From assembly GCF_913054185.1 (NCBI RefSeq), contig NZ_CAJXIV010000016.1, forward strand, positions 1 to 50,972: DNA of 50,972 nucleotides, in the 5' to 3' direction. The stretch comes from an uncultured Shimia sp. Lineage in GTDB: Bacteria; Pseudomonadota; Alphaproteobacteria; Rhodobacterales; Rhodobacteraceae. The notes under the pieces were generated by a model. It saw only the letters and a program-made list of their open reading frames with translations, was not told where the DNA came from and made no database searches. How positions within the stretch are numbered: position 1 is the first letter of the stretch; every line of letters starts with the position of its first letter. Position numbers and translations under genes: made by a program. Positions 19,941 to 30,382 of this stretch are shown one piece after another.

Positions 19941-20049
19941 GGTTTTGGGTGTCGACAGCGTTCTTGCCCGCGCGAGGCTTGTTATCTGCTTTCACAATTG
20001 CAGCAGGCGGATTAGTCACCCTTATCTGTAGTTTCCCAGGAATAAGTTC

Positions 20050-20598
20050 ATGGCGCAAAAATCCACTATTTATAAAGTTGAACTTTCCGTGTCGGATATG
20101 GATCGTCACTACTATGCCACCCACAAACTGACTGTCGCCAAACATCCGTCAGAGACGGATGAAAGAATGATGGTACGGCTGGTTGCTTTTGCCCTGAACG
20201 CCGATGAACAACTGGAACTGACCAAAGGGCTGTCGACTGACGATGAGCCGGATATCTGGCAGAAAAGCCTAAGCAATGAGCTCGAGTTGTGGGTCACATT
20301 GGGGCTTCCGAGTGAGAAGATCGTACGTCAGTCTTGCGGCAAAGCTGATGCGGTCATTGTTTACAGTTACGGTGGCACAACCGCCGAAAATTGGTGGAAC
20401 AAAATCAACACCAGCACCACCCGGTTTGGCAATCTTCAGGTGATCAATTTTTCCGAGACAGACACCCAAGCGTTGGAAAAACTGGCAAGCCGCACGATGA
20501 AGCTTCAGGTGAATATTCAAGATGGCGACGTGATGGTCAGCGCTGAGGACAACATTGTCTATTTGACACCCATCACATGGAAAGATGCCGCGCGTTGA
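20050..20598 (+). CDS. yaeQ: YaeQ family protein
   Basis: 182 residues throughout matching the YaeQ family (PD-(D/E)XK nuclease-like fold). Recognisable elements are the start STIYKVELSVSDMDRHYYAT, HPSETDERMMVRLVAFAL with the conserved Glu/Arg, the DEPDIWQKSLSNELELWVTLGLP stretch, and the ACs-like KADAVIVYSYG. The biochemical function is not established; E. coli YaeQ was proposed to affect RfaH-dependent haemolysin expression. It is followed after 24 bp by a small gene and probably co-transcribed with it; the MYG1 gene ends 109 bp before it on the same strand. Confidence 0.88.
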   Translation: MAQKSTIYKVELSVSDMDRHYYATHKLTVAKHPSETDERMMVRLVAFALNADEQLELTKGLSTDDEPDIWQKSLSNELELWVTLGLPSEKIVRQSCGKADAVIVYSYGGTTAENWWNKINTSTTRFGNLQVINFSETDTQALEKLASRTMKLQVNIQDGDVMVSAEDNIVYLTPITWKDAAR

Positions 20599-20622
20599 GC
20601 GGTTGATAAGAGGAAGAATGGT

Positions 20623-21003
20623 ATGGGAACGCCTGAATCCGAAAACACGGCTGCGCGCCCAGAGAACCGGCTGGCACCTCGTGTCCGGGCGTATCTGTGC
20701 GACCTTTTGGCGGGGGACCGGCCAATCACATATCAAGCGCTTGCCAAAGACCTTCAGTTGTCACCGCCAAACACGATCCAACAACTCACAGAGGCGTTGG
20801 AATGTCTGATCGAAGAGGACGCTGCTGCGGGTCATCCGCTGATCGCGGCGTTGGTTGTCAGTCGGGCGCGCGATGGCCTGCCTGCGCCAGGGTTCTTTGA
20901 GCGCGCATACGGCGCGGGACGCCTTCACAGTGATCCCGCAGCCTTCTATGCCGCAGAGTTTGCAGATGCAGCCACATTTTGGTGCAGGTCCACTTCACCT
21001 TGA
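20623..21003 (+). CDS. Small hypothetical protein with possible winged-helix fold
   Basis: 126 residues, no signal peptide. The segment LAPRVRAYLCDLLAGDRPITYQALAKDL reads like a winged helix-turn-helix (the ITYQALAKDLQLSPPNTIQQLTEALE part being the helix-turn-helix). It is followed by the sequence LVVSRARDGLPAPGFFERA, which I have the impression recurs in otherwise uncharacterised alphaproteobacterial proteins. A DNA- or nucleotide-related role is possible but unproven. It lies 24 bp behind yaeQ and is probably in the same operon. Confidence 0.7.
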   Translation: MGTPESENTAARPENRLAPRVRAYLCDLLAGDRPITYQALAKDLQLSPPNTIQQLTEALECLIEEDAAAGHPLIAALVVSRARDGLPAPGFFERAYGAGRLHSDPAAFYAAEFADAATFWCRSTSP

Positions 21004-21241
21004 TTGGATGAGCCAAGTCATCAGCCACATATGATGTGAACTCTGGCCCGACCGATCAGGGTTGTGTGCGTCCGTTTTGAAGTGTGGATTGATGCCGTTT
21101 TCAAAGCTGGCGGAATGTGTTGGCTTTTTTTTGCGAGGGCGATGACGTGGCTGTCCCTTTGCAGTTCATTTCCCCTCTCGCTCCTCTGGTGTATCTCTGT
21201 CAAACTCTCCTCAACAATCTTGGCAAACGAGGGCCGTCGTA

Positions 21242-22393
21242 ATGAGTATGTCGCGTCGTAATTTTTCTCTCGGGCTCTCGGCCCTGACCCTAACAGCCTG
21301 TCAAAGCACGCCGGGTACATCCTCAAGTTCTTCTGTCTCGAAACCGCAAGGACTCCCGGCTGATTTACGTCCGCAACCCAACCGTGACTATGCCGCATGG
21401 GTTGCCAGTTTTCGTGCGCGCGCCTTGGCCAAAGGCATCACAGAAACAAGTCTTAACGCGGCATTTCGCGACACGGGCTATTTGCCCGGCGTCGTTAAGC
21501 GGGACCGCAACCAGACGGAGTTCACCCGCACGCTTGAAGATTACCTGTCGATCGCCGCGTCCGAGGAACGCATCTCCAAAGGCCGCGCCGCTTTTGCGCG
21601 GCATAGCAGCACGCTAAAAAACCTTGAGCAAAGCTATGGTGTGGATGCGGAAATCATCTGTGCCATCTGGGGGCTGGAAAGCTACTACGGCGAGCGCACA
21701 GGCGACATTCCAGTGATCTCTGCCACTTCCACTTTGGCCTTTGATGGACGACGGGGCAGTTTCTATGAAAAACAGCTGATCGCGGCGCTCAAGATCATTC
21801 AAAGTGGTGATATCGCGGCGCACCGAATGACGGGAAGTTGGGCCGGTGCCATGGGGCACACGCAGTTTATTCCAACCAGCTATTTGTCTTTTGCGGTGGA
21901 TTATACCGGCGATGGTCGTCGTGACATTTGGTCAGATGATCCGTCTGACGCATTGGCTTCCACCGCTGCGTATCTGCAAAAGAACGGCTGGTCCCGCGGC
22001 ACCAAATGGGGCTGGGAGTTGCGCTCAGGTGAAATCGCGTCGCGGGTGATCCGACCACAGGCTGGCGGCCCACGGTTTGCGGTGACCGGAAACTTCAACG
22101 CCATTAAGCGCTACAACAACTCTGACAGCTACGCGATTGGAGTGGGCCATTTGGCGGATCGCATTGGCGGCGCCGGCCCGCTGCGCACTCCGTTCCCGCC
22201 GGATCAATACGGGCTCACCAAAGACGACCGCATCGCCTTGCAAACTCGCCTGACAGTGCGGGGGTTTGATACCGGGGGGGCGGACGGTGTGTTGGGTCCC
22301 AAATCTCGCGCGGCAATTGCCGATTACCAGCGCAGTGTCGGGATTGAGCCAAGTGGAAACCCATCGCAGGCGTTGCTGACGTCATTGGGTTGA
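21242..22393 (+). CDS. Lytic murein transglycosylase, MltB family lipoprotein
   Basis: A 383-residue peptidoglycan-cleaving lipoprotein. The N-terminus has twin arginines (MSMSRRNFSL) and a lipobox LTAC with Cys about 20. The SLT_2 catalytic domain follows (residues ~45-310) with the catalytic Glu about 146 in IWGLESYYGERTGD and the ligand-binding motifs AMGHTQFIPTSYL and DGRRDIW. A C-terminal peptidoglycan-binding domain spans ~325-380 (RGFDTGGADGVLGPKSRAAI). It would form anhydromuropeptides at the inner side of the outer membrane or in the periplasm. A second ATG six bases downstream is an equally possible start. Confidence 0.93.
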   Translation: MSMSRRNFSLGLSALTLTACQSTPGTSSSSSVSKPQGLPADLRPQPNRDYAAWVASFRARALAKGITETSLNAAFRDTGYLPGVVKRDRNQTEFTRTLEDYLSIAASEERISKGRAAFARHSSTLKNLEQSYGVDAEIICAIWGLESYYGERTGDIPVISATSTLAFDGRRGSFYEKQLIAALKIIQSGDIAAHRMTGSWAGAMGHTQFIPTSYLSFAVDYTGDGRRDIWSDDPSDALASTAAYLQKNGWSRGTKWGWELRSGEIASRVIRPQAGGPRFAVTGNFNAIKRYNNSDSYAIGVGHLADRIGGAGPLRTPFPPDQYGLTKDDRIALQTRLTVRGFDTGGADGVLGPKSRAAIADYQRSVGIEPSGNPSQALLTSLG

Positions 22394-22511
22394 AGGTAGC
22401 GCACGCATTGGAAGATTGAACGCTCAATTCACAATTCTATCGTAGGTCGAGGATTTTTAGTGTTTTCCCGTCAGGCGGGTTTGAAGCCTTGCGCCTTGTT
22501 TTTGGGCGATT

Positions 22512-22548
22512 TTTACGAAGATGCAAATTTGCGTAAATTGGCTATACT
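22512..22548 (+). promoter_or_regulatory. Promoter with overlapping dyads before the cyclase gene
   Basis: A TATACT -10 element lies at 22543-22548. Directly upstream are a perfect palindrome GCAAATTTGC (22523-22532) and an outer dyad TTTACG / CGTAAA (22512-22517 and 22532-22537). No good -35 is seen, which fits an activated or tightly repressed promoter for the three-gene unit that follows. Confidence 0.45.
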
Positions 22549-22579
22549 TGGGGTTTAACCTATTGGTGGAGTGCTTCGC

Positions 22580-24376
22580 ATGGCGGGCACACGCGCGACC
22601 TTTGTTGATGAGGTCGAGGGACTTCAAACATTGCAACGCGCATCCGAAACGGTCGTTTTCGCAGATGTCGTGGATTCCGTGCGCCTGATAGACAAAGACG
22701 AAGAAGGCACCATTCAAAGATGGCTCAGCTTTGTCGACGACATTGAAAGCGATCTCAAAACCCGAAAGTCCGGACGAATTGTCAAACGCCTTGGCGATGG
22801 AATTATGCTGGAATTTGATGACCCTTCGGAAGCTGTGCATGTGGCGCTGAGAATGCGCAAGACGCTGGCCACACAGAACCAGCGCACACCGGCCATGCAG
22901 CATATTGGCATTCGCATTGGCATGCATTCTGGTCAGGTACTGCGTACACCAGATTCCGATTTGTACGGGCGCCACGTGAATATTGCTGCCCGATTGGCCG
23001 CTGCCGCCCAGCCCGGAGAGGTAATGGCGTCAGTTGAGGTGAGAGATACCTTGGCCAATAGCATGGATGCAGAATTTGAGGACATCGGCCAAATTTATCT
23101 GAAAAACGTCCCTGACCCGGTTCATGCCTTTCGTGTTGTTGGCACTGATGAGGTTTCTCCGGTTGCGCCATTGATGTCGCCTGAGGATTTGCTGCCCACA
23201 ATTGCTGTGCTTCCGCTGATGATGCGCAACAGCGCGGAGGCATCTGTTTGGGGAGGCATGTTGGCGGACGACTTGACGGTTGCCCTATCCCGCTCTCATC
23301 GGATGAATGTTATCTCGCACTTGTCAACGCTCGCAATTTCGGTCGAGAGAAACACGCCGGCTGAACTTTCCAAAAAACTGGGGGCCGATTTCTTATTGTC
23401 TGGGTCGTGTTCCGTGGGGCAAGACCGGCATATCCTAGATCTCAGCCTGTCTCGGCCACGCTCAGGGCATGTTATTTGGTCTGATCGGATTGAGGTTGAT
23501 GCCGCTGAGGTGCTGCAAAAGAACCTGATATTCTCAGAGGTGGCCAACGAAGTTCACCTGGCCATTCTGGATTTGGAAACGCGGCGGGCGATGAGCTTCC
23601 CGGTGCCAACCTTGGATGGGTACGAAATTCTGATGGCGGCGGTTGCGTTGATGCACCGCCTGTCCCCAACAGATTTTGCCCGTGCGGGTGAGCTGCTTGA
23701 TGCCTTGATAGATCGGATGCCATTCAACCCTGTGCCGTTGGCTTGGAAGTCGCGCTGGCATGTGCTGAAGGTTGTGCAGGGATGGTCCACAGATTTGCAG
23801 GCGGAGGCCGCATCCGCGCTCAATCATACGCGCCGCGCGCTTGATCTTGATCCGACAAACACCGGCGCGCTGATTGCGGAAGGGTTTGTCCAAACCAATC
23901 TGTTGCATGATTTGTACGAGGCGGAGGAGCTTTATAACAGCGCGTTGGAGTACGCCCCAAATGAGGCCACAGGCCGCGCGCTGCGAGGCACGCTTTACGC
24001 GTTTCGCGGCGAAGGCCGGAAAGCCGTGCGTGATGCGGAACGGTCGTTGCACCTTGCGCCACGCGACCCGCACCGGTTCTTTTTTCAGTGTCTGGCGGGC
24101 AGTGCCAGCATGGTCGCCGAGGATTACCCGCGCGCGCATGAATTGATCAAAAGCTCACTGCGTCTCAATCGCTTGCATATGTCGTCACTGCGCATGCTGG
24201 CGGTCATTGAGTGGCGGATGGGCAATCATGAGGCCGCGCGCAACACTGCGCAAAAGATCGGTCGGTTGGATCCGGCATTTACCATCAGTAGATGGAAACG
24301 CAGCACGCCAAGCGCCGAATTCCCGGTGGGTGTCGCGTTTGCCCAAACCTTAAAAGAGATCGGAATTCCAGACTGA
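22580..24376 (+). CDS. Class III adenylate cyclase with TolB-like and TPR regions
   Basis: 598 residues, no signal peptide or membrane segment. Residues ~20-190 form a class III cyclase domain with all six key positions: metal Asp 29 (VVFADVVDS) and Asp 73 (LGDGIMLEF), Lys 69 and Asp 127 as adenine selectors, and Asn 134 and Arg 138 (GRHVNIAARL) for the transition state. The spacings equal those of active mycobacterial enzymes, so ATP to cAMP is expected. Residues ~210-330 resemble the TolB-like domain that often follows such cyclases (IAVLPL to GADFLLSGS). The last ~250 residues are TPR-like helical pairs (NHTRRALDLDPTNTGALIAE). ATG 22580 is preferred over GTG 22571 since GGTGGA precedes it. 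It is the first gene of the unit with the next two. Confidence 0.88.
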   Translation: MAGTRATFVDEVEGLQTLQRASETVVFADVVDSVRLIDKDEEGTIQRWLSFVDDIESDLKTRKSGRIVKRLGDGIMLEFDDPSEAVHVALRMRKTLATQNQRTPAMQHIGIRIGMHSGQVLRTPDSDLYGRHVNIAARLAAAAQPGEVMASVEVRDTLANSMDAEFEDIGQIYLKNVPDPVHAFRVVGTDEVSPVAPLMSPEDLLPTIAVLPLMMRNSAEASVWGGMLADDLTVALSRSHRMNVISHLSTLAISVERNTPAELSKKLGADFLLSGSCSVGQDRHILDLSLSRPRSGHVIWSDRIEVDAAEVLQKNLIFSEVANEVHLAILDLETRRAMSFPVPTLDGYEILMAAVALMHRLSPTDFARAGELLDALIDRMPFNPVPLAWKSRWHVLKVVQGWSTDLQAEAASALNHTRRALDLDPTNTGALIAEGFVQTNLLHDLYEAEELYNSALEYAPNEATGRALRGTLYAFRGEGRKAVRDAERSLHLAPRDPHRFFFQCLAGSASMVAEDYPRAHELIKSSLRLNRLHMSSLRMLAVIEWRMGNHEAARNTAQKIGRLDPAFTISRWKRSTPSAEFPVGVAFAQTLKEIGIPD

Positions 24377-24414
24377 CAAGGCATTGAAACTGAACATATA
24401 TGGAGGATTTTCTC

Positions 24415-25707
24415 ATGAGCAACGCATCCAACGTGGCACCGGAAGGTGCCTTTGGCGCATTTGGAGCCTTTGGGGCTTTTTCTGGCAGCGGCGCCTTTGG
24501 TGCTTTTGGGGCGTTTGGCGCACCCGGACCAGCCGATCCACCGCTGATTTCGCAGGCCTTGATCACCAATCATGATGGAATTTCCGGCACATGGGCACCG
24601 GTCACTGGGGCTTCGGTGCTTCCAAATTCAGAAGAAACAACCGCCTATTTATCGAAACTGTCAGTCCCTGTGCGGGCCAGCATATTTGCATTTGAACTGG
24701 GAAGCCGCATTGGTTTTGGCTTTGAACAATCCTCATCCGCCAGTGCCTCCAATTGGGCGCAGGTGTACCATTTGGAAACGGTTGCGCCCCCGAGCGCCAC
24801 CACTGCGGTGCCGCATCCCGTTCCCGGCACCAAGTATCAACATCTCATCGCCATGAGGCGTCCCACACAGGAGATATTTGCCAAGCAGCTGACGCTGGTC
24901 GCAAATTACGCGGACTTGCGCCAAGACCGTATGGCCGAGATTTTGGCGCAGCTGGGCACACCAACAGAGTTTTTGCGCGCAATCGCCTACATTGAGCCAG
25001 CGCGAACGCCGTTCACCATTGAGCTTTTGGCAACCGCACATTGGCTGGCGAATTTTGTGGAAATGCGGCTCAAATACGCGCTTGCCTGCAAACGGCCGAA
25101 TGAGTTTTCGCCACAAATTCAGCCGATGATCTGGACCCCGTCCCACGGCAGCCTGCCAAGTGGTCATGCTACCGAGGCGTTTACAATGGCGCGGGTTCTT
25201 TGGGCGTTGCTGCGCACCTTAGGTGTTAAACCTTATTCGGAGGGCATCTGGGGCGAAATGTTGATGCGCCAAGCGGCGCGGATTGCCATCAATCGTACGG
25301 TCGCTGGTGTGCACTTCCCTGTCGATAGTGCCGCTGGTGCCGTTCTGGGGCTCACGCTTGGGAAATACTTCGTGGACCGATGCACGCAAGTTGCGCCACA
25401 TACCAGTTGGTCCTTTGATGGGCGCCATTACCCGGACACTTTGGACTTTGACTGGCGGGCGTATTTTGACCCAAGAAATCCTGCAATTGGTCACGATCCT
25501 GAACAGAAAGCGCCGCCGTCAGACGGACAAGCTGCGCCTTATGTGAGCAAGACCAATATTGCAAACCCAGAGCAAAACCAGATCCGATCGCGGCCGTTGG
25601 AGTGGCTCTGGCGCATGGCGGCGGCGGAATGGGCGGATCTGGCCGCGGACACTGAGACGGCGGCGGTGACCGGGCCAGGAGGCGTATCGGGTGGGGGCGC
25701 AAGCCAA
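24415..25707 (+). CDS. Vanadium haloperoxidase / PAP2 phosphatase-like protein with GAF-tripeptide N-terminus
   Basis: About 431 residues; the stop codon ends at 25710. After a short leader, residues 11-37 are seven Gly-Ala-Phe repeats broken by Ser-Gly-Ser and closed by Gly-Ala-Pro. The C-terminal half has the vanadate/phosphate pocket of the PAP2-haloperoxidase superfamily: Lys 220 and Arg 227-Pro 228 (KYALACKRP), His 244, Ser 249-Gly-His 251 (LPSGH), and Arg 294-His 300-Asp 304 (NRTVAGVHFPVD). This fits vanadium-dependent haloperoxidases or soluble acid phosphatases; there is no signal peptide and no membrane segment. ATG 24415 is chosen because GGAGGA lies 7 bases before it. It is 38 bp after the cyclase gene and overlaps the protease gene (ATGA). 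Substrate unknown. Confidence 0.82.
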
Positions 25708-27851
25708 TGACCATCACATGGACAGACCTTTCCCGAAGCCAACAACCGCGGGACCTGTTGACCTACTTTGCGCTCAACGCGATGCAGCGGTTTTTTGAGG
25801 CAGATCGTGATTTTGTCAATGAAACCCCAGTTGGTCTCGATCCTGTGGATTATGAGGATCAAATGTGGCTGGCGCTGGTTTCTGTGGCAAAAACCGCCAA
25901 CAATGAACGGAGCTGGTCGCTCCAGGATCTGCTGAACAAAGCTGGTGATTACGATCCGCCACTTCCAGAGGGAGCGGTGATCATTCCCGGAGAATACGAC
26001 CTTTCTTACAGAGAACGGACCGATCTTGATGTTGTCAGCATTTATGCAAAGCGGGCCTACCTCAACGCGGCCAACGCAGCGGACGGCGAGCGCAGGCTGG
26101 GCATTGCGTCCATAACTACCTGTGCGCCGCTTGATCGGCGGTCGCTGCATCTTTCATCAGACCCGTTTGCCCCGCGAACTGTGACCCAATCAATCTCGTC
26201 CGAAGCTGTAGTGACTGCCGTGATTGATCATGGAATTGCGATAGCCCATGATCTTTTCCGCCGCGAGGAAAATGGAAAGCTGGCCCTGAGCCGCGTCGAC
26301 TTTTTCCTCAACATGGATGATGTCTCTCAAACATCTGGGCTTCTGCAAGCATCACTTGGGCGGGTCTGGACGCGATCTGAAATCGAAACTGTCCTGGAAA
26401 AGCACCTTCACAATGGCTTGCTTGATGAGGCCGAAGTGTATCGCGAACTGGGGCTGATCAATTGGCAAGATCGCCCCTTTAACTCCTGCGCGCATCGGGT
26501 GTCTCATGGCACACATGTGGCCGGTTTGGCGGCTGGGTATGATGCTGATGAACCTGTTGGCGATGATCGGCGCATCATTGCGATCCAATTGCCCACCAGT
26601 GTCGTCCGCAACACGATGGGATTTGGTATTGAAACAACAATTGAAAAGGCGCTTGAGTTTGTTGCTGAACACATTCAAAACTATGAGCAGGACGGAGAGC
26701 CGGTCACCCCACCTCTGGTGATTAATTTCAGTTTCGGGAATTTTTTGGGTCCACATGACGGCACTGGTGTGGTGTCCCGTGCCATTCATGCGGCTTTGGC
26801 TGATATGTCTCAAGCGACAAACCGGCCGCGGCTACTGTTACTGCCGTCTGGCAACGGCAACCTGTCCCGCTGTCATGCTGTGATTGAGCTGACGGAGCAA
26901 GCGCCTGAAAAGGAAATTGATTGGGAGCTGCAGCCGTCAGATCGAAGCGCATCAGTACTGAGCATTTGGCTGCCGTTGATGCCAGATATTCCGGATGCGG
27001 CTTTGTCCTTAAGCATTACCTTACCCGGTGAGAGTGAGGCTCATACCATCACTGTGGGCATGGTCCCTCGGTTCACCTTGATAAACCGAACTGCTCCGGG
27101 CGGGGGGGAGGTTGTGATTGGAATTGTGATCTATTGTCCGCCACAAGCCCCGACGTTTCGCGGGCAGATCATGATTGTGGCGCTTCCCACTGACAATCCG
27201 AAAGATGTGCGTCCTGTGGCGCCCTTTGGCAATTGGACATTGCGCTTTGCCAAAAGGGAAGGCGTGGGGCCCCTAAAGTTAAATGCTTGGGTGCAACGGG
27301 ATGAAACTTTGCCTGGATTTCCCGAGTTTGGGCGCCAGTCCCGCCTCAGTGACCAAAACTATCCCAGGTTTAAGTTACCCAGTGGCAAAACGCTTGATGA
27401 AGACCTTTCGAGCCGGCCAAGTTTGGTGCGGAGAGCGGGTATGATCAATGGCATTGGCTGTGGCACCTTGCCTGCTGTCATCGCCGGCTATGTGAATTCA
27501 GATGGCAAAATGGCGACATATTCTGCAGGCGGGCCGACCTTAAACATCAGCAGACTGTTTGGGCCAGATGCCTCCGCGGTCAGCGACGACAGCGTGGCTC
27601 TGCATGGTGTTTTAAGTGCGGGTTCAAGCAGCGGCTCGCGCGTTAGTATGAATGGCACCAGCGTGTCGACACCCCAAGTGGCCCGGTGGGCGGCGGATAA
27701 AATGGCTGCCGCGCCCAATGTGTCGTTTGGGCGCGCGGATGTGTTCGCGCAAGCACTGACAGACGATCCGTATCAACCGGACAAACCGGCACCCACGCGC
27801 ACTGGCGGGGGACGTTTAAGACTGCCTTCGGTCTTTGGTGGACTGCGGTAG
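25707..27851 (+). CDS. Subtilisin-like serine peptidase (S8 family), without signal peptide
   Basis: 714 residues. The triad is complete: Asp 174 (TAVIDHGIAI), His 267 (RVSHGTHVAG) and Ser 652 (NGTSVSTPQVA), with oxyanion Asn 383 (LPSGNGN). About 165 residues precede the first catalytic residue and may be a prodomain or a recognition domain. Between Asn 383 and Ser 652 there is an insert of roughly 250 residues, rich in beta strands (SVLSIWLPLMP, TLRFAKREG), far longer than in simple subtilisins. No signal peptide is present, which is unusual for a subtilase and suggests action in the cytoplasm or another export route. The start overlaps the previous stop by ATGA, so both proteins are translationally coupled. 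Confidence 0.88.
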   Translation: MTITWTDLSRSQQPRDLLTYFALNAMQRFFEADRDFVNETPVGLDPVDYEDQMWLALVSVAKTANNERSWSLQDLLNKAGDYDPPLPEGAVIIPGEYDLSYRERTDLDVVSIYAKRAYLNAANAADGERRLGIASITTCAPLDRRSLHLSSDPFAPRTVTQSISSEAVVTAVIDHGIAIAHDLFRREENGKLALSRVDFFLNMDDVSQTSGLLQASLGRVWTRSEIETVLEKHLHNGLLDEAEVYRELGLINWQDRPFNSCAHRVSHGTHVAGLAAGYDADEPVGDDRRIIAIQLPTSVVRNTMGFGIETTIEKALEFVAEHIQNYEQDGEPVTPPLVINFSFGNFLGPHDGTGVVSRAIHAALADMSQATNRPRLLLLPSGNGNLSRCHAVIELTEQAPEKEIDWELQPSDRSASVLSIWLPLMPDIPDAALSLSITLPGESEAHTITVGMVPRFTLINRTAPGGGEVVIGIVIYCPPQAPTFRGQIMIVALPTDNPKDVRPVAPFGNWTLRFAKREGVGPLKLNAWVQRDETLPGFPEFGRQSRLSDQNYPRFKLPSGKTLDEDLSSRPSLVRRAGMINGIGCGTLPAVIAGYVNSDGKMATYSAGGPTLNISRLFGPDASAVSDDSVALHGVLSAGSSSGSRVSMNGTSVSTPQVARWAADKMAAAPNVSFGRADVFAQALTDDPYQPDKPAPTRTGGGRLRLPSVFGGLR

Positions 27852-27858
27852 CTAAGCG

Positions 27859-28425
27859 TTATAACTGCACCCACTCTGCAGGTGGCTTTCCTTTGCCAGG
27901 GTGCAGTTCCCCACACTTGGGGCAGGTGCGTGCCTCGGTGCTGTTGTGGAAGGCGTCATAGATTTTGGGCAAAGCGGTGACGATGCCTTCGGGATCCTCC
28001 AGCGATACTTCTTCGCGATGCACAAGAGCTTCGCAGTTAAAGCAGAACCACTCAAACCCCTCTTTCATGCCGGGTTGCCGAGGGGCCTCGACCACGATCC
28101 CGATGGAGCCTTCCTGTGGCCGCTGCGGGGCATGCCGGGTGTGTGGTGGCAGCATAAAAACTTCACCTTCCCGCACCGGGACGTCATAGATTTTCCCGCC
28201 TTCAGCGATTTTGAGCATCATGTCGCCTTTTTGCTGAAAGAACCATTCCTCAACCGGATCGTCATGGAAATCGACCCGTGTGTTGGGGCCGCCGACCACC
28301 ATCACAATCATGCCATCGCCATCTTTATGAAGTAGCTGGTTGCCAACGGGCGGGCGCAGCTTGTCCTCGTTTTCGGCAACCCATTTATTGAAGTTGAAGG
28401 GCTTTAACGTTGGATGGCTGCTCAT
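27859..28425 (-). CDS. 3-hydroxyanthranilate 3,4-dioxygenase
   Basis: 188 residues of the cupin-fold enzyme that opens 3-hydroxyanthranilate to 2-amino-3-carboxymuconate semialdehyde, which cyclises to quinolinate or is degraded further. Iron ligands are seen in VDFHDDPVEEWFFQ (His, Glu) and PPHTRHAPQRP (His). The C-terminal rubredoxin-like metal site of the bacterial enzymes is intact (FNCEALVH and CPKCGELHPG). The start at 28425 follows GGGAG at 8 bases; an in-frame ATG 21 bases upstream is less well placed. Kynureninase, the enzyme making its substrate from 3-hydroxykynurenine, is encoded 5.4 kb away in the same cluster. It has its own upstream region with a TATTCAA dyad. Symbols nbaC and haaO are both used for this enzyme. 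Confidence 0.92.
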   Translation of the reverse strand: MSSHPTLKPFNFNKWVAENEDKLRPPVGNQLLHKDGDGMIVMVVGGPNTRVDFHDDPVEEWFFQQKGDMMLKIAEGGKIYDVPVREGEVFMLPPHTRHAPQRPQEGSIGIVVEAPRQPGMKEGFEWFCFNCEALVHREEVSLEDPEGIVTALPKIYDAFHNSTEARTCPKCGELHPGKGKPPAEWVQL

Positions 28426-28492
28426 TTGTTTTCTCCCGGTGGACACATCTGCTCTCTCAAAGCCTAAGACAAATGGCGCTCCGAAAATAAGG

Positions 28493-28526
28493 TATTCAAG
28501 GAATTTTGCTATCGGAATTTTGAATA
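28493..28526. promoter_or_regulatory. TATTCAA / TTGAATA dyad upstream of the dioxygenase gene
   Basis: Perfect 7-base arms at 28493-28499 and 28520-28526, enclosing two direct copies of GGAATTTT (28500-28507 and 28514-28521). The element fills the gap between the exporter stop and the dioxygenase start. A similar TATTCAA-N4-TTGATA element occurs in the divergent promoter at 30460, so a common regulator, probably the LysR protein of the cluster, is inferred. Confidence 0.5.
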
Positions 28527-29426
28527 TCAGATGGGCACTGCCAGCATCATTGTGATCCCCATGACGGCAAGTAAAGCCGCGACAAACAGGCGGCCAACGG
28601 CGATTGGCTCACCGCTGCGGAGCAAAACAATGAGGGCTGCTGAAAAAAGCACATCAAGCGATCCAATTACGGAAACCGCCAAAACGGACGTAGATTGAAG
28701 CGCCAGGAACTGAAGCACCTGCCCGAAACTCAGCGCAAGGGCCGTGATCCAATGCCAAGGCCCACGATCGATCAAAAGTGTGCGTGGCCCCCGAGATGTG
28801 TTGGCATGCATCGCGGCTACAACGGGGAACCAGATGCAGCCTATCAATGCGCCTATGAGGGCTCCGAGGGTCGGATCGGGCAATCTCTGCAGCCCCCAAG
28901 ATCTGAGGGCATAAGAAAGGGCGTAGAAAAAGGCAGAGGCGACCCCGAGCGCCAATCCAGTTGAGACCGAAGCGGGGAGGTACCAACTGGGGGTGCGGAG
29001 GTAGAAAACGATGCCTAGCAGCACAACAAGGCCACCAAGAACTTCCCTTGAATGCGGCACTTGGCCAACCACCACAAAAGCAAGCGGCAGCGCAAAAACT
29101 GGTGTTAATCGGCGCAACAAACCTGTGGTGACCGCACCGACCTGTTCGGCGGCGCGATACATGGTGATGCGCCCAAGAACGGTTGAAAACAGGCCCGCCG
29201 CCGCAAAAGCAGCCACGGCGATGAGTGCGCTTTCAGACTTCAGATGAGTGAGGGAAGACCTGCCCCAGACCAGCCAAAGTGCTGCCGACAGGCAGGCCGT
29301 TGTGACAACCGCGAGGAACACGCCTTTGTCGCCTTGTGCTGTGGCCTTGCCTTTTACTATGGAGACGCCCGCAAGCCCGTAAGCAAACGCGGCCAATAGG
29401 GCATAGACCTCACCCGTGGCAGGCAA
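28527..29426 (-). CDS. DMT family transporter (EamA)
   Basis: A 299-residue inner-membrane protein with about ten hydrophobic helices arranged as two EamA repeats (the first from LLAAFAYGLAGVSIV, the second from GLALGVASAFFYALSYALRS). Members of this superfamily export or exchange metabolites; the substrate here is unknown but a metabolite of the aromatic amino acid pathway is plausible from its neighbours. The only fitting start is TTG 29426, two bases after the stop of the DapA-like gene, so translation may depend on coupling. Confidence 0.85.
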   Translation of the reverse strand: MPATGEVYALLAAFAYGLAGVSIVKGKATAQGDKGVFLAVVTTACLSAALWLVWGRSSLTHLKSESALIAVAAFAAAGLFSTVLGRITMYRAAEQVGAVTTGLLRRLTPVFALPLAFVVVGQVPHSREVLGGLVVLLGIVFYLRTPSWYLPASVSTGLALGVASAFFYALSYALRSWGLQRLPDPTLGALIGALIGCIWFPVVAAMHANTSRGPRTLLIDRGPWHWITALALSFGQVLQFLALQSTSVLAVSVIGSLDVLFSAALIVLLRSGEPIAVGRLFVAALLAVMGITMMLAVPI

Positions 29427-29428
29427 AA

Positions 29429-30382
29429 TCAGAGCCTGAGGCCGCAGGATTGAAACGCAGCTGCGGTGGCGGATTTTTCGGCGTCGGTCAATTCCAGCAT
29501 TGGATGCCGCACGTGGCCGCCCACTTGGCCAAGAAGCTCTTGCCAGTATTTGCCATGTGCCGTTGGTTTGCCGGCCGGTTTGGTGGATTTGATCGCCTCG
29601 CGCACAGGATCAAGGCTGTCGCGAACACGCCGCGCCTCGTCAAACTTACCGGCAAAGGCCAATTCGGTGTATTCATGCATCCGCAGATCGTTTTTGCTCT
29701 GCAATTGATAGGGGGGCGATGAGCACAGATAGAGTTGCCATTTCAACTCTTCGATATTGTCCAACCAATCGTCTTCGAGGGAGGTTGAGACCAGGATTTT
29801 GTGGCCAACCATCTTTGTCAGCCGCGCATACATCTCCCGTGGGACGGAGTATTTGATCGCCATTATGTTGGGCAGGTCGGCAATGCGCGCACAGGTTTCA
29901 GGCGCCATGAGATAGCCGCTGTCAGGGTGGCTCCACATCGCGATGCCAATGTCGAGGCGGTCACACAGGTATTTGTAATAGTTATACAAAACCTCATCTC
30001 GATCGTGGCAGAAACTCAACATCGGGGCGTGAACCACCACGTAGTCAGCACCACAGTTCTGCGCGTGTCGTCCCAATTCAAGAACCATGTCGACGCTTTG
30101 ATCGGAGATCGACATGATTGTCCCAGCCTTGCCTGCGCATTCTTCGGCCGCGACGGTCATGTTCCGTTTGCGCTCTTCCAGAGACATCGACCAGAATTCG
30201 CCTTGTTTGCCCGCAATAAACAGCCCTTGGATATGAAGGTCATCAATCCAATGGCGAATGTTGCTGCGCAGGCCGGCTTCATTCATCGCGCCATCGGCAT
30301 CGAAGGGATTCAGGGCGGCGGCCCAAATGCCACGCATGGTTTCGCGGGCATAGGCTTTTGCCTCGTGTTTTTTGTATTGCAT
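29429..30382 (-). CDS. DapA (DHDPS/NAL) superfamily protein, atypical active site
   Basis: A 317-residue TIM-barrel protein of the dihydrodipicolinate synthase / N-acetylneuraminate lyase superfamily, which joins or cleaves alpha-keto acids through a Schiff base. The Schiff-base Lys is about 177 (NIMAIKYSV). The usual Gly-Thr-Thr-Gly-Glu loop is replaced by AGKQGEF, and where the proton-relay Tyr of the YNxP motif should stand it has Trp 150 (MWSHP). It is therefore not a true DapA and its reaction is likely different. The start at 30382 has GGAGAG in front; longer in-frame starts lack support. It is divergent from the aspartate dehydrogenase and co-oriented with the exporter and dioxygenase. 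Confidence 0.8.
   Translation of the reverse strand: MQYKKHEAKAYARETMRGIWAAALNPFDADGAMNEAGLRSNIRHWIDDLHIQGLFIAGKQGEFWSMSLEERKRNMTVAAEECAGKAGTIMSISDQSVDMVLELGRHAQNCGADYVVVHAPMLSFCHDRDEVLYNYYKYLCDRLDIGIAMWSHPDSGYLMAPETCARIADLPNIMAIKYSVPREMYARLTKMVGHKILVSTSLEDDWLDNIEELKWQLYLCSSPPYQLQSKNDLRMHEYTELAFAGKFDEARRVRDSLDPVREAIKSTKPAGKPTAHGKYWQELLGQVGGHVRHPMLELTDAEKSATAAAFQSCGLRL

Follow-up and report, generated by a model that had tools for sequence, protein, structure and literature searches.

A conserved three-gene module pairs a TPR regulator and a CspB-like subtilase with a PAP2-fold enzyme that carries a lineage-variable tandem peptide array

Results

A three-gene locus with a tandem array near the start of a PAP2-fold enzyme

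The window analysed here, meaning the whole stretch of 50,972 nucleotides from an uncultured Shimia sp. (contig NZ_CAJXIV010000016.1), contains three same-strand genes for a regulator with a C-terminal tetratricopeptide repeat (TPR) part, an enzyme of the PAP2 fold and a subtilase (Table 1). The PAP2 protein carries an N-terminal array of one short peptide unit, which in the window reads GAF x4, SGS, GAFGAFGAFGA. Regulator, PAP2-fold enzyme and CspB-like subtilase form a self-contained conserved gene module, and nearly every lineage that carries it has a peptide unit of its own.

A preliminary description of the locus, made from the sequence alone, had proposed three genes separated by a 38-bp gap and an ATGA overlap, and the three open reading frames (ORFs) were recovered on one strand with this spacing, each beginning with ATG at the first position listed in Table 1. 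The families assigned there were borne out by Pfam, as class III cyclase with TPR (Guanylate_cyc, E = 3e-14; TPR_2, 1e-7), PAP2 (2e-14) and Peptidase_S8 (5e-13), and all 17 catalytic residues stood at the positions given: D29/K69/D73/D127/N134/R138 of the cyclase, K220/R227/H244/H251/R294/H300/D304 of the PAP2 protein and D174/H267/N383/S652 of the subtilase. A Kyte-Doolittle scan, which is not a dedicated predictor, agreed that none of the three proteins has a signal-peptide-like N-terminus and likewise gave no membrane-like segment for them (best 19-residue mean 1.29). The single promoter-like region said to lie in front of the genes was not recovered, the scan giving no sigma-70-like site upstream of gene 1 and being itself uninformative (two sites in the whole region, 2.8 expected). 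The hexamer TATACT at 22543–22548 was seen by eye only; GGTGGAG is read directly at 22564–22570, ahead of gene 1. No RNA element reached the gathering score within 20000–30000 of the window.

Table 1. Features of the module in the window
Feature	Position	Strand	Basis
Gene 1, regulator (598 aa): head with class III nucleotide cyclase, then a middle region, TPR at the C-terminus	22580..24376	+	ORF, Pfam
Cyclase domain of gene 1	22649..23107	+	Pfam PF00211, residues 27-179 of the GTG-started ORF
TPR-bearing part of gene 1 (putative array reader)	23765..24289	+	Residues 399-573 hold the TPR matches
Shine-Dalgarno GGAGG of gene 2	24402..24406	+	Read directly
Gene 2 (431 aa): soluble enzyme of the PAP2 / acid phosphatase fold, tandem array at its N-terminus	24415..25710	+	Pfam, AlphaFold2, Foldseek
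Array part 1: GAF x4, in four different codon versions	24445..24480	+	
SGS spacer within the array	24481..24489	+	The four close relatives L074-L077 have SGS, TGS or NGS here
Array part 2: GAFGAFGAFGA	24490..24522	+	
Gene 3, CspB-like subtilase (714 aa), D174/H267/N383/S652	25707..27851	+	Pfam, model, Foldseek
Beta-rich insert between catalytic N383 and S652 of gene 3	26904..27476	+	DSSP of the model; boundaries approximate

The module is conserved across Proteobacteria and on plasmids

Relatives were collected from 248 genomes of the window's family, its own genome included, and from a GTDB scan with a PAP2 alignment, of whose 395 relatives the best 80 were used. Removal of 6 duplicates at 99% identity or more from 125 PAP2 ORFs left 119 non-redundant loci (80 from the GTDB scan, 35 from other genomes, 3 from plasmids and the window), close relatives below 99% being kept. 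ORFs were taken as stop-to-stop frames with predicted starts.

A single-sequence PAP2 search matched 74 of the 248 family genomes at 1e-10, and a subtilase lay within 2 kb of the PAP2 gene in all 40 surroundings fetched, which were drawn from the 43 best-matching places beyond the window. Profile searches of the same genomes placed PAP2 matches of at least 135 bits, a limit chosen after the scores had been seen, within 3 kb of a subtilase match in 68 of 71 cases, as against 0 of 20 for weaker PAP2 matches; in the reverse direction, 68 of 76 subtilase matches were paired with PAP2. The pair is present in 59 of the 248 genomes, about a quarter, nine of which hold two or more. A subtilase also stood beside PAP2 in each of the best 80 GTDB-scan loci (clipped by a contig end in L135), which come mostly from Alpha- and Betaproteobacteria, plus a few records labelled otherwise, and include Rhodobacteraceae, Microvirga, Rhizobium, Bradyrhizobium, Tardiphaga, Paraburkholderia, Polaromonas, Variovorax, Kiloniella and a Chromatiales symbiont. 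In 118 of the 119 loci no more than 500 bp separate the two genes, the exception having a gap of 1930 bp; the regulator is co-directional in 88, divergent in 28 and not in reach in 3. Plasmid copies were found in 35 records, 21 of them from Phaeobacter, and 11 of the 35 were typed conjugative. On the Parasedimentitalea plasmid pW43B (L032, 7881–11143) the PAP2 and subtilase genes are split into several frames, both the array (NSF x7) and the ORF of the regulator being open. The possibility, raised in the preliminary description, that the triad occurs in no other genome is clearly contradicted by these searches, which find it as a conserved neighbourhood.

The defence role considered there gained no support. 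PADLOC gave nothing at E 0.01 or better except weak generic cyclase and subtilase matches, phage records held no relative of the PAP2 domain at 1e-6, and no other family of at least 150 aa recurred as a fourth gene in more than 5 loci. Searches of open-access PMC papers, which took in six of the 66 repeat words, found no description of the array or the module.

The repeated unit varies among lineages

An N-terminal array repeating one unit perfectly was present in 116 of the 119 PAP2 ORFs, a frequency that holds for this PAP2 clade, every locus having been found by way of PAP2. The remaining three comprise a gene inside which the contig begins (L144), a repeat that enters a stretch of N (L134) and one ORF in which none was found (L072). 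The arrays use 66 distinct units up to rotation, such as GAF, SAY, GGV, TGW, EAV and GQ; the preliminary description had rightly named the GAF repeat but had missed this diversity. The unit is three residues long in 104 arrays, four in 8, two in 3 and six in 1, and the perfect run extends over 9–57 residues (median 28). All units contain G, A, S, T or N, 52 of the 66 contain G, and many follow a small-small-aromatic pattern. Copies within an array are strikingly uniform: in the 112 arrays with three- or four-residue units, array ends uncounted, only 28 odd units are embedded among 1063 perfect copies, and about a third of these are SGS-like spacers. In the AlphaFold2 model of the window protein, residues 1–37 have a predicted local distance difference test (pLDDT) score below 50 and the array is disordered.

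Such runs are rare elsewhere in the same loci, occurring in 24 of 3730 other stop-to-stop ORFs of at least 120 aa. Nineteen of these overlap the PAP2 ORF in other frames, and the remaining five include one duplicate PAP2 and three ORFs from one minisatellite. A DNA minisatellite readable in several frames lies in the subtilase region of Paraburkholderia sp. BCC1884 (L137, 8307–8944). The six-residue unit, YGGQGA, belongs to Primorskyibacter sedentarius (L095), whose nearest relatives (L036, L090, L096 and L112) have GAY; it is possibly an intermediate or higher-order unit.

All copies of the unit change together

Among 27 pairs of loci with 80–90% identical PAP2 domains, 16 share the unit and 11 differ, and at 30–40% PAP2 identity it is common to only 25 of 4312 pairs (in neither case are the pairs independent). 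Every-copy switches were seen between GGV and GGI in Microvirga (91%) and between GGF, GGL, SGF and SGL in roseobacters. On the enzyme tree the unit has changed at least 75 times (66 states, giving a floor of 65), compared with 5 changes of regulator class. The unit can also be constant and its number vary, as in the six of the 21 Phaeobacter plasmid records that were read (NSF, 6 or 7 copies) and in four Rhizobium loci (GGH x5 or x6). Paralogous modules differed in unit in all 8 pairs read, which is uninformative, given that a unit is common to only 128 of 6455 pairs taken at random.

At the DNA level the copies are scrambled. Within single arrays, 800 of the 1055 DNA units are distinct, and TCN and AGY codons for serine are both used in 10 of the 31 arrays that contain it. 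A copy and its neighbour share the codon at 794 of 2863 positions open to comparison, whereas permutation within arrays gave 1037 ± 21 and none of 1000 permutations was as low; codons thus differ in 72% of synonymous neighbour comparisons. The effect is weaker for whole adjacent units, which are identical in 41 of 939 cases (53 ± 6 permuted). Two copies apart, codon identity exceeds the permuted value (1021 of 2515 against 908), which points to some DNA-level duplication of two-unit blocks, and 5 of 116 arrays contain an exact tandem DNA match of at least 18 nt. The peptide unit is therefore preserved even though adjacent copies tend to be unlike in DNA, a pattern that could reflect either selection against slippage or the loss of identical neighbours.

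Arrays were also compared codon by codon in 23 close pairs. Homology was clear in five of the 11 same-unit pairs (no more than 3 of 300 shuffles did as well), near the 5% level in two and undetectable in four, whereas none of the 12 different-unit pairs showed homology (at least 72 of 300 shuffles as good), even at 75% flank codon identity (L099/L094). This is suggestive of the arrival of a pre-scrambled array by recombination, though it does not amount to proof, because same-unit pairs at 66–68% flank identity (L091/L088 and L128/L104) failed as well and different-unit pairs have fewer comparable positions. The GGV and GGI arrays of L099/L094 were for this reason set aside as proof of import, 4 of the 11 same-unit pairs likewise lacking codon homology, two of them at similar flank divergence.

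The unit co-varies with the shared part of the regulator

The C-terminal part of the regulator is common to the loci, and its head is variable. By profile scores, 43 of the 119 loci have a cyclase head, 45 have a co-directional regulator without one, 28 have a divergent regulator with a weak profile match and 3 have none in reach, so that the cyclase head is missing in 73 of the 116 loci with a regulator in reach. Pfam, applied to 10 regulators, recognised one cyclase type, four Trans_reg_C (one also with BTAD) and five with no recognised head; the term 'BTAD-like' for the divergent regulators is a label given by eye. Where the cyclase head is present its residues are largely kept (D29 in 42 of 43, K69 in 38, D73 in 42, D127 in 43, N134 in 37 and R138 in 43). 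Because only 43 of the 119 loci have this head, control by cyclic AMP, which the preliminary description had proposed, is not the common theme of the module.

Seven unit-switch and 14 same-unit close pairs, picked by eye and with p-values uncorrected, were compared for divergence relative to PAP2. The TPR part was more diverged in the unit-switch pairs (p = 0.025 for amino acids, 0.046 for synonymous sites), as was the middle part of the regulator (p = 0.025 and 0.25, respectively), and no excess was found for the regulator head (p = 0.25), the PAP2 start (p = 0.54) or the subtilase (p = 0.49). Two of the seven, a Kiloniella pair (L147/L152) and a Polaromonas pair from one metagenome-assembled genome (L145/L150), have one diverged tract spanning the TPR half, the array and the PAP2 start between conserved ends, nucleotide identity falling from ~0.9 at the regulator head to ~0.5 at the array and returning to ~0.9.

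A tree-based test, in which unit histories were simulated on the PAP2 tree, covered 266 pairs of 86 tips, and in 60 of these pairs the unit is shared. A shared unit goes with higher similarity of the TPR region (the C-terminal 290 residues of the regulator) than the enzyme distance predicts (0.053 against a null of 0.007 ± 0.020, P = 0.005), a result that survives Bonferroni correction for four regions (0.02). Similarity of the subtilase is unrelated to a shared unit (P = 0.90).

Conserved active sites of the enzyme and the protease

The pattern K-x6-RP / PSGH / R-x5-H-x3-D is the catalytic motif of the PAP2 superfamily, and its vanadate-binding K/R/H/R/H residues are common to acid phosphatases too, so that they do not separate these from vanadium haloperoxidases. 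All 119 loci retain K/R/H/H, and 118 retain R/H/D (one gap). Foldseek, run on the AlphaFold2 model of the window protein (pLDDT 83), placed class A acid phosphatases nearest (E 2e-6), with a vanadium iodoperoxidase at E 4e-3. The vanadate-binding residues expected of the haloperoxidase named in the preliminary description are present, but its identity is unproven, the modelled fold being nearer that of class A acid phosphatases. The window protein shares with both families the core fold and catalytic residues of this type; it differs from them by its array, by extra N- and C-terminal regions and by the lack of a signal-peptide-like N-terminus.

The catalytic D, H and N of the subtilase are kept in 118 of 118 aligned relatives and the serine in 115 (three gaps). 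Its model (pLDDT 89.6) is nearest in Foldseek to Clostridium CspB (4i0w, E 2.6e-25, TM-score 0.78 by target length), with CspA and CspC also among the nearest structures and matching over the whole length. What had been described as a giant insert probably corresponds to the insertion of the Clostridium Csp proteases, to judge from this match and from the beta-rich character of the insert (DSSP of the model), which may resemble the Csp jellyroll. The Csp germination proteases share the fold, a subtilase domain interrupted by a beta-rich insertion. According to PMC3567191, CspB has a jellyroll insertion of ~130 aa, its prodomain stays bound, and it is the processing protease needed for cortex-hydrolase activation. 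The window protein differs from the Csp proteases in its low identity (~15% in the Foldseek alignments), its other gene partners, the lack of spores and an insert larger than the figure given for CspB.

Discussion

The module and its array are directly observed; recognition and cleavage of the array are what we infer. We tentatively suggest, as a possibility short of probable, that the array is a lineage-private peptide tag, with the TPR regulator as its reader and the CspB-like subtilase as the protease that would act on it. The TPR part of gene 1 would bind the repeated peptide of its own partner, and some trigger would lead the subtilase to cleave or release the array. Either event, binding or release, would then alter the output of the regulator head, be it cyclic nucleotide or transcription, and also the state or location of the enzyme. 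Such logic would be akin to that of Gram-positive TPR-receptor peptide systems, except that everything would take place inside a single cell and that the peptide is part of an enzyme. Should the array prove to be a recognition code, it would represent a class of bacterial tag that uses repeat identity instead of a fixed motif, of which dozens of natural alleles and candidate readers are already present in sequence databases. A wider version seems unlikely: a Gram-negative, lineage-private peptide code in which a TPR-read barcode on a phosphatase-like enzyme, with a dedicated intracellular subtilase, would be exchanged together with its reader between strains as a specificity cassette, leaving modules insulated or competing.

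Several observations weigh against a tag read by the TPRs. The middle region of gene 1 associates with the unit as well, and with a larger effect (0.077 against 0.007 ± 0.036, P = 0.026; P = 0.056 when the region is cut differently), so the link lies with the shared part of the regulator and not provably with the TPRs. The association could partly be physical linkage, because the end of gene 1 adjoins the array, and in unit-switch pairs the greater divergence of the TPR part extends to its synonymous sites. The first 70 residues of PAP2, which lie beside the array, gave no significant association in the tree-based test (P = 0.23), which argues against pure linkage, though the stretch is short. 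That test left out the 28 divergent-regulator loci. The unit is mirrored in neither regulator nor subtilase; a pseudosubstrate was considered and rejected when it was found not to be significantly echoed in either (102 loci with three-residue units). The excess codon identity two copies apart shows that blocks of DNA are sometimes duplicated, and the model leaves the tag's presence on a phosphatase-like enzyme unexplained.

A homotypic assembly tag, in which only arrays of the same unit would stack or condense together, the enzyme being concentrated in a private filament or condensate until the subtilase dissolves it, appears doubtful. Register-tolerant stacking would select for homogeneity, and the units are low-complexity and internally identical in an array that is disordered in the model. 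They range, however, from aromatic (GAF, TGW) to charged (SGD, EGH, GKM, RAQ), with periods of 2, 3, 4 and 6, which hardly fits one chemistry, and the association with the regulator is left unexplained. A homotypic partner encoded elsewhere was also sought: the GAFGAF codon pattern gave six matches in the window genome (93.85% complete), five in the array and one in a spurious-looking short frame, the reversed control pattern giving two.

That the array is chiefly a substrate of the protease, whose removal activates the enzyme or frees many identical peptides while the TPR protein regulates expression only, is decidedly unlikely. Matched specificity would predict that subtilase similarity tracks the unit, which it does not, and the echo of the unit in the subtilase is not significant (11 four-residue matches against 6.8 ± 2.7 permuted, P = 0.09). 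Such a role would suit a subtilase that has a conserved triad and in all 119 loci lies no more than 2 kb from PAP2; the processing role of CspB (PMC3567191) and the tandem propeptides of Bacillus phages cut by extracellular proteases (PMC11343458) provide precedents.

It is quite improbable that the array is a mere spacer whose unit changes are neutral products of repeat slippage. Its low complexity, disorder and N-terminal place, the one-unit variation in copy number within Phaeobacter and the trace of block duplication are as expected of a spacer. Nothing precedes the array to be spaced, however; a neutral array should degenerate, yet odd units are few and synonymous codons differ, and recent slippage would leave identical DNA, yet most DNA units are distinct and few adjacent ones identical. 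That all copies switch together while neighbouring copies stay unlike in DNA is the evolutionary puzzle of this system.

The stress or defence unit of the preliminary description, with an intracellular haloperoxidase and protease under cyclic AMP control, is highly improbable: the cyclase residues are complete in the window and mostly kept in the 43 cyclase-type loci, but most loci have a non-cyclase regulator, the enzyme fold is nearer acid phosphatases and no defence system was matched.

Among known systems, the association with a regulator, its exchangeable heads and the protease in the operon recall the RRNPP(A) systems (Rap-Phr, Rgg-SHP, PlcR-PapR, AimR-AimP), in which output heads vary and peptides are lineage-variable. 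The likeness lies in a TPR receptor encoded next to a peptide gene, as set out in PMC10075063; the window regulator has TPRs and adjoins the array-bearing gene, and a regulator is co-directional and near in 88 of the 119 loci. It extends to maturation by proteases, subtilisin, Epr and Vpr being named for one such system in a cited title, and to tandem pheromone copies matured by extracellular proteases (PMC11343458). The module is not a member of this group, because PMC10075063 gives propeptides of 10–100 aa and receptors of 250–500 aa, whereas the array sits in a 431-aa enzyme and the window regulator has 598 aa. The same paper describes a secreted propeptide; the PAP2 protein has no hydrophobic N-terminus (Kyte-Doolittle scan only). 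The module further differs in occurring in Gram-negatives, in its operon-encoded, cytoplasmic-looking protease and in units of 2–6 residues without spacers. Likeness to Pycsar and class III cyclases is confined to a weak PADLOC match of the cyclase domain (E 8e-6): the TPR architecture differs, most relatives lack the cyclase head, and no Pycsar effector was seen, either as a PADLOC effector match in the three proteins or as a recurring fourth gene of at least 150 aa. No function emerged from the present searches for a module carried by about a quarter of the sampled family genomes and by some conjugative plasmids.

Genes next to the module

The sole same-genus genome compared has the window's lytic transglycosylase gene (window 21242–22393, 84% identical), and around it strong similarity to the window is limited to this gene, ending there on both sides. 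That genome has neither the module nor a 3-hydroxyanthranilate 3,4-dioxygenase match, and the empty-site comparison defines no insertion edges. A gene for this dioxygenase adjoins the module both in the window (27859–28446, minus strand) and on the Phaeobacter plasmid pP66_c (L031, 3814–4380); the two are 86% identical, and no other fetched stretch has one. A small protein is encoded just upstream of the module in L098 (2427–3089), with relatives in four other loci (L102, L114, L125 and L128).

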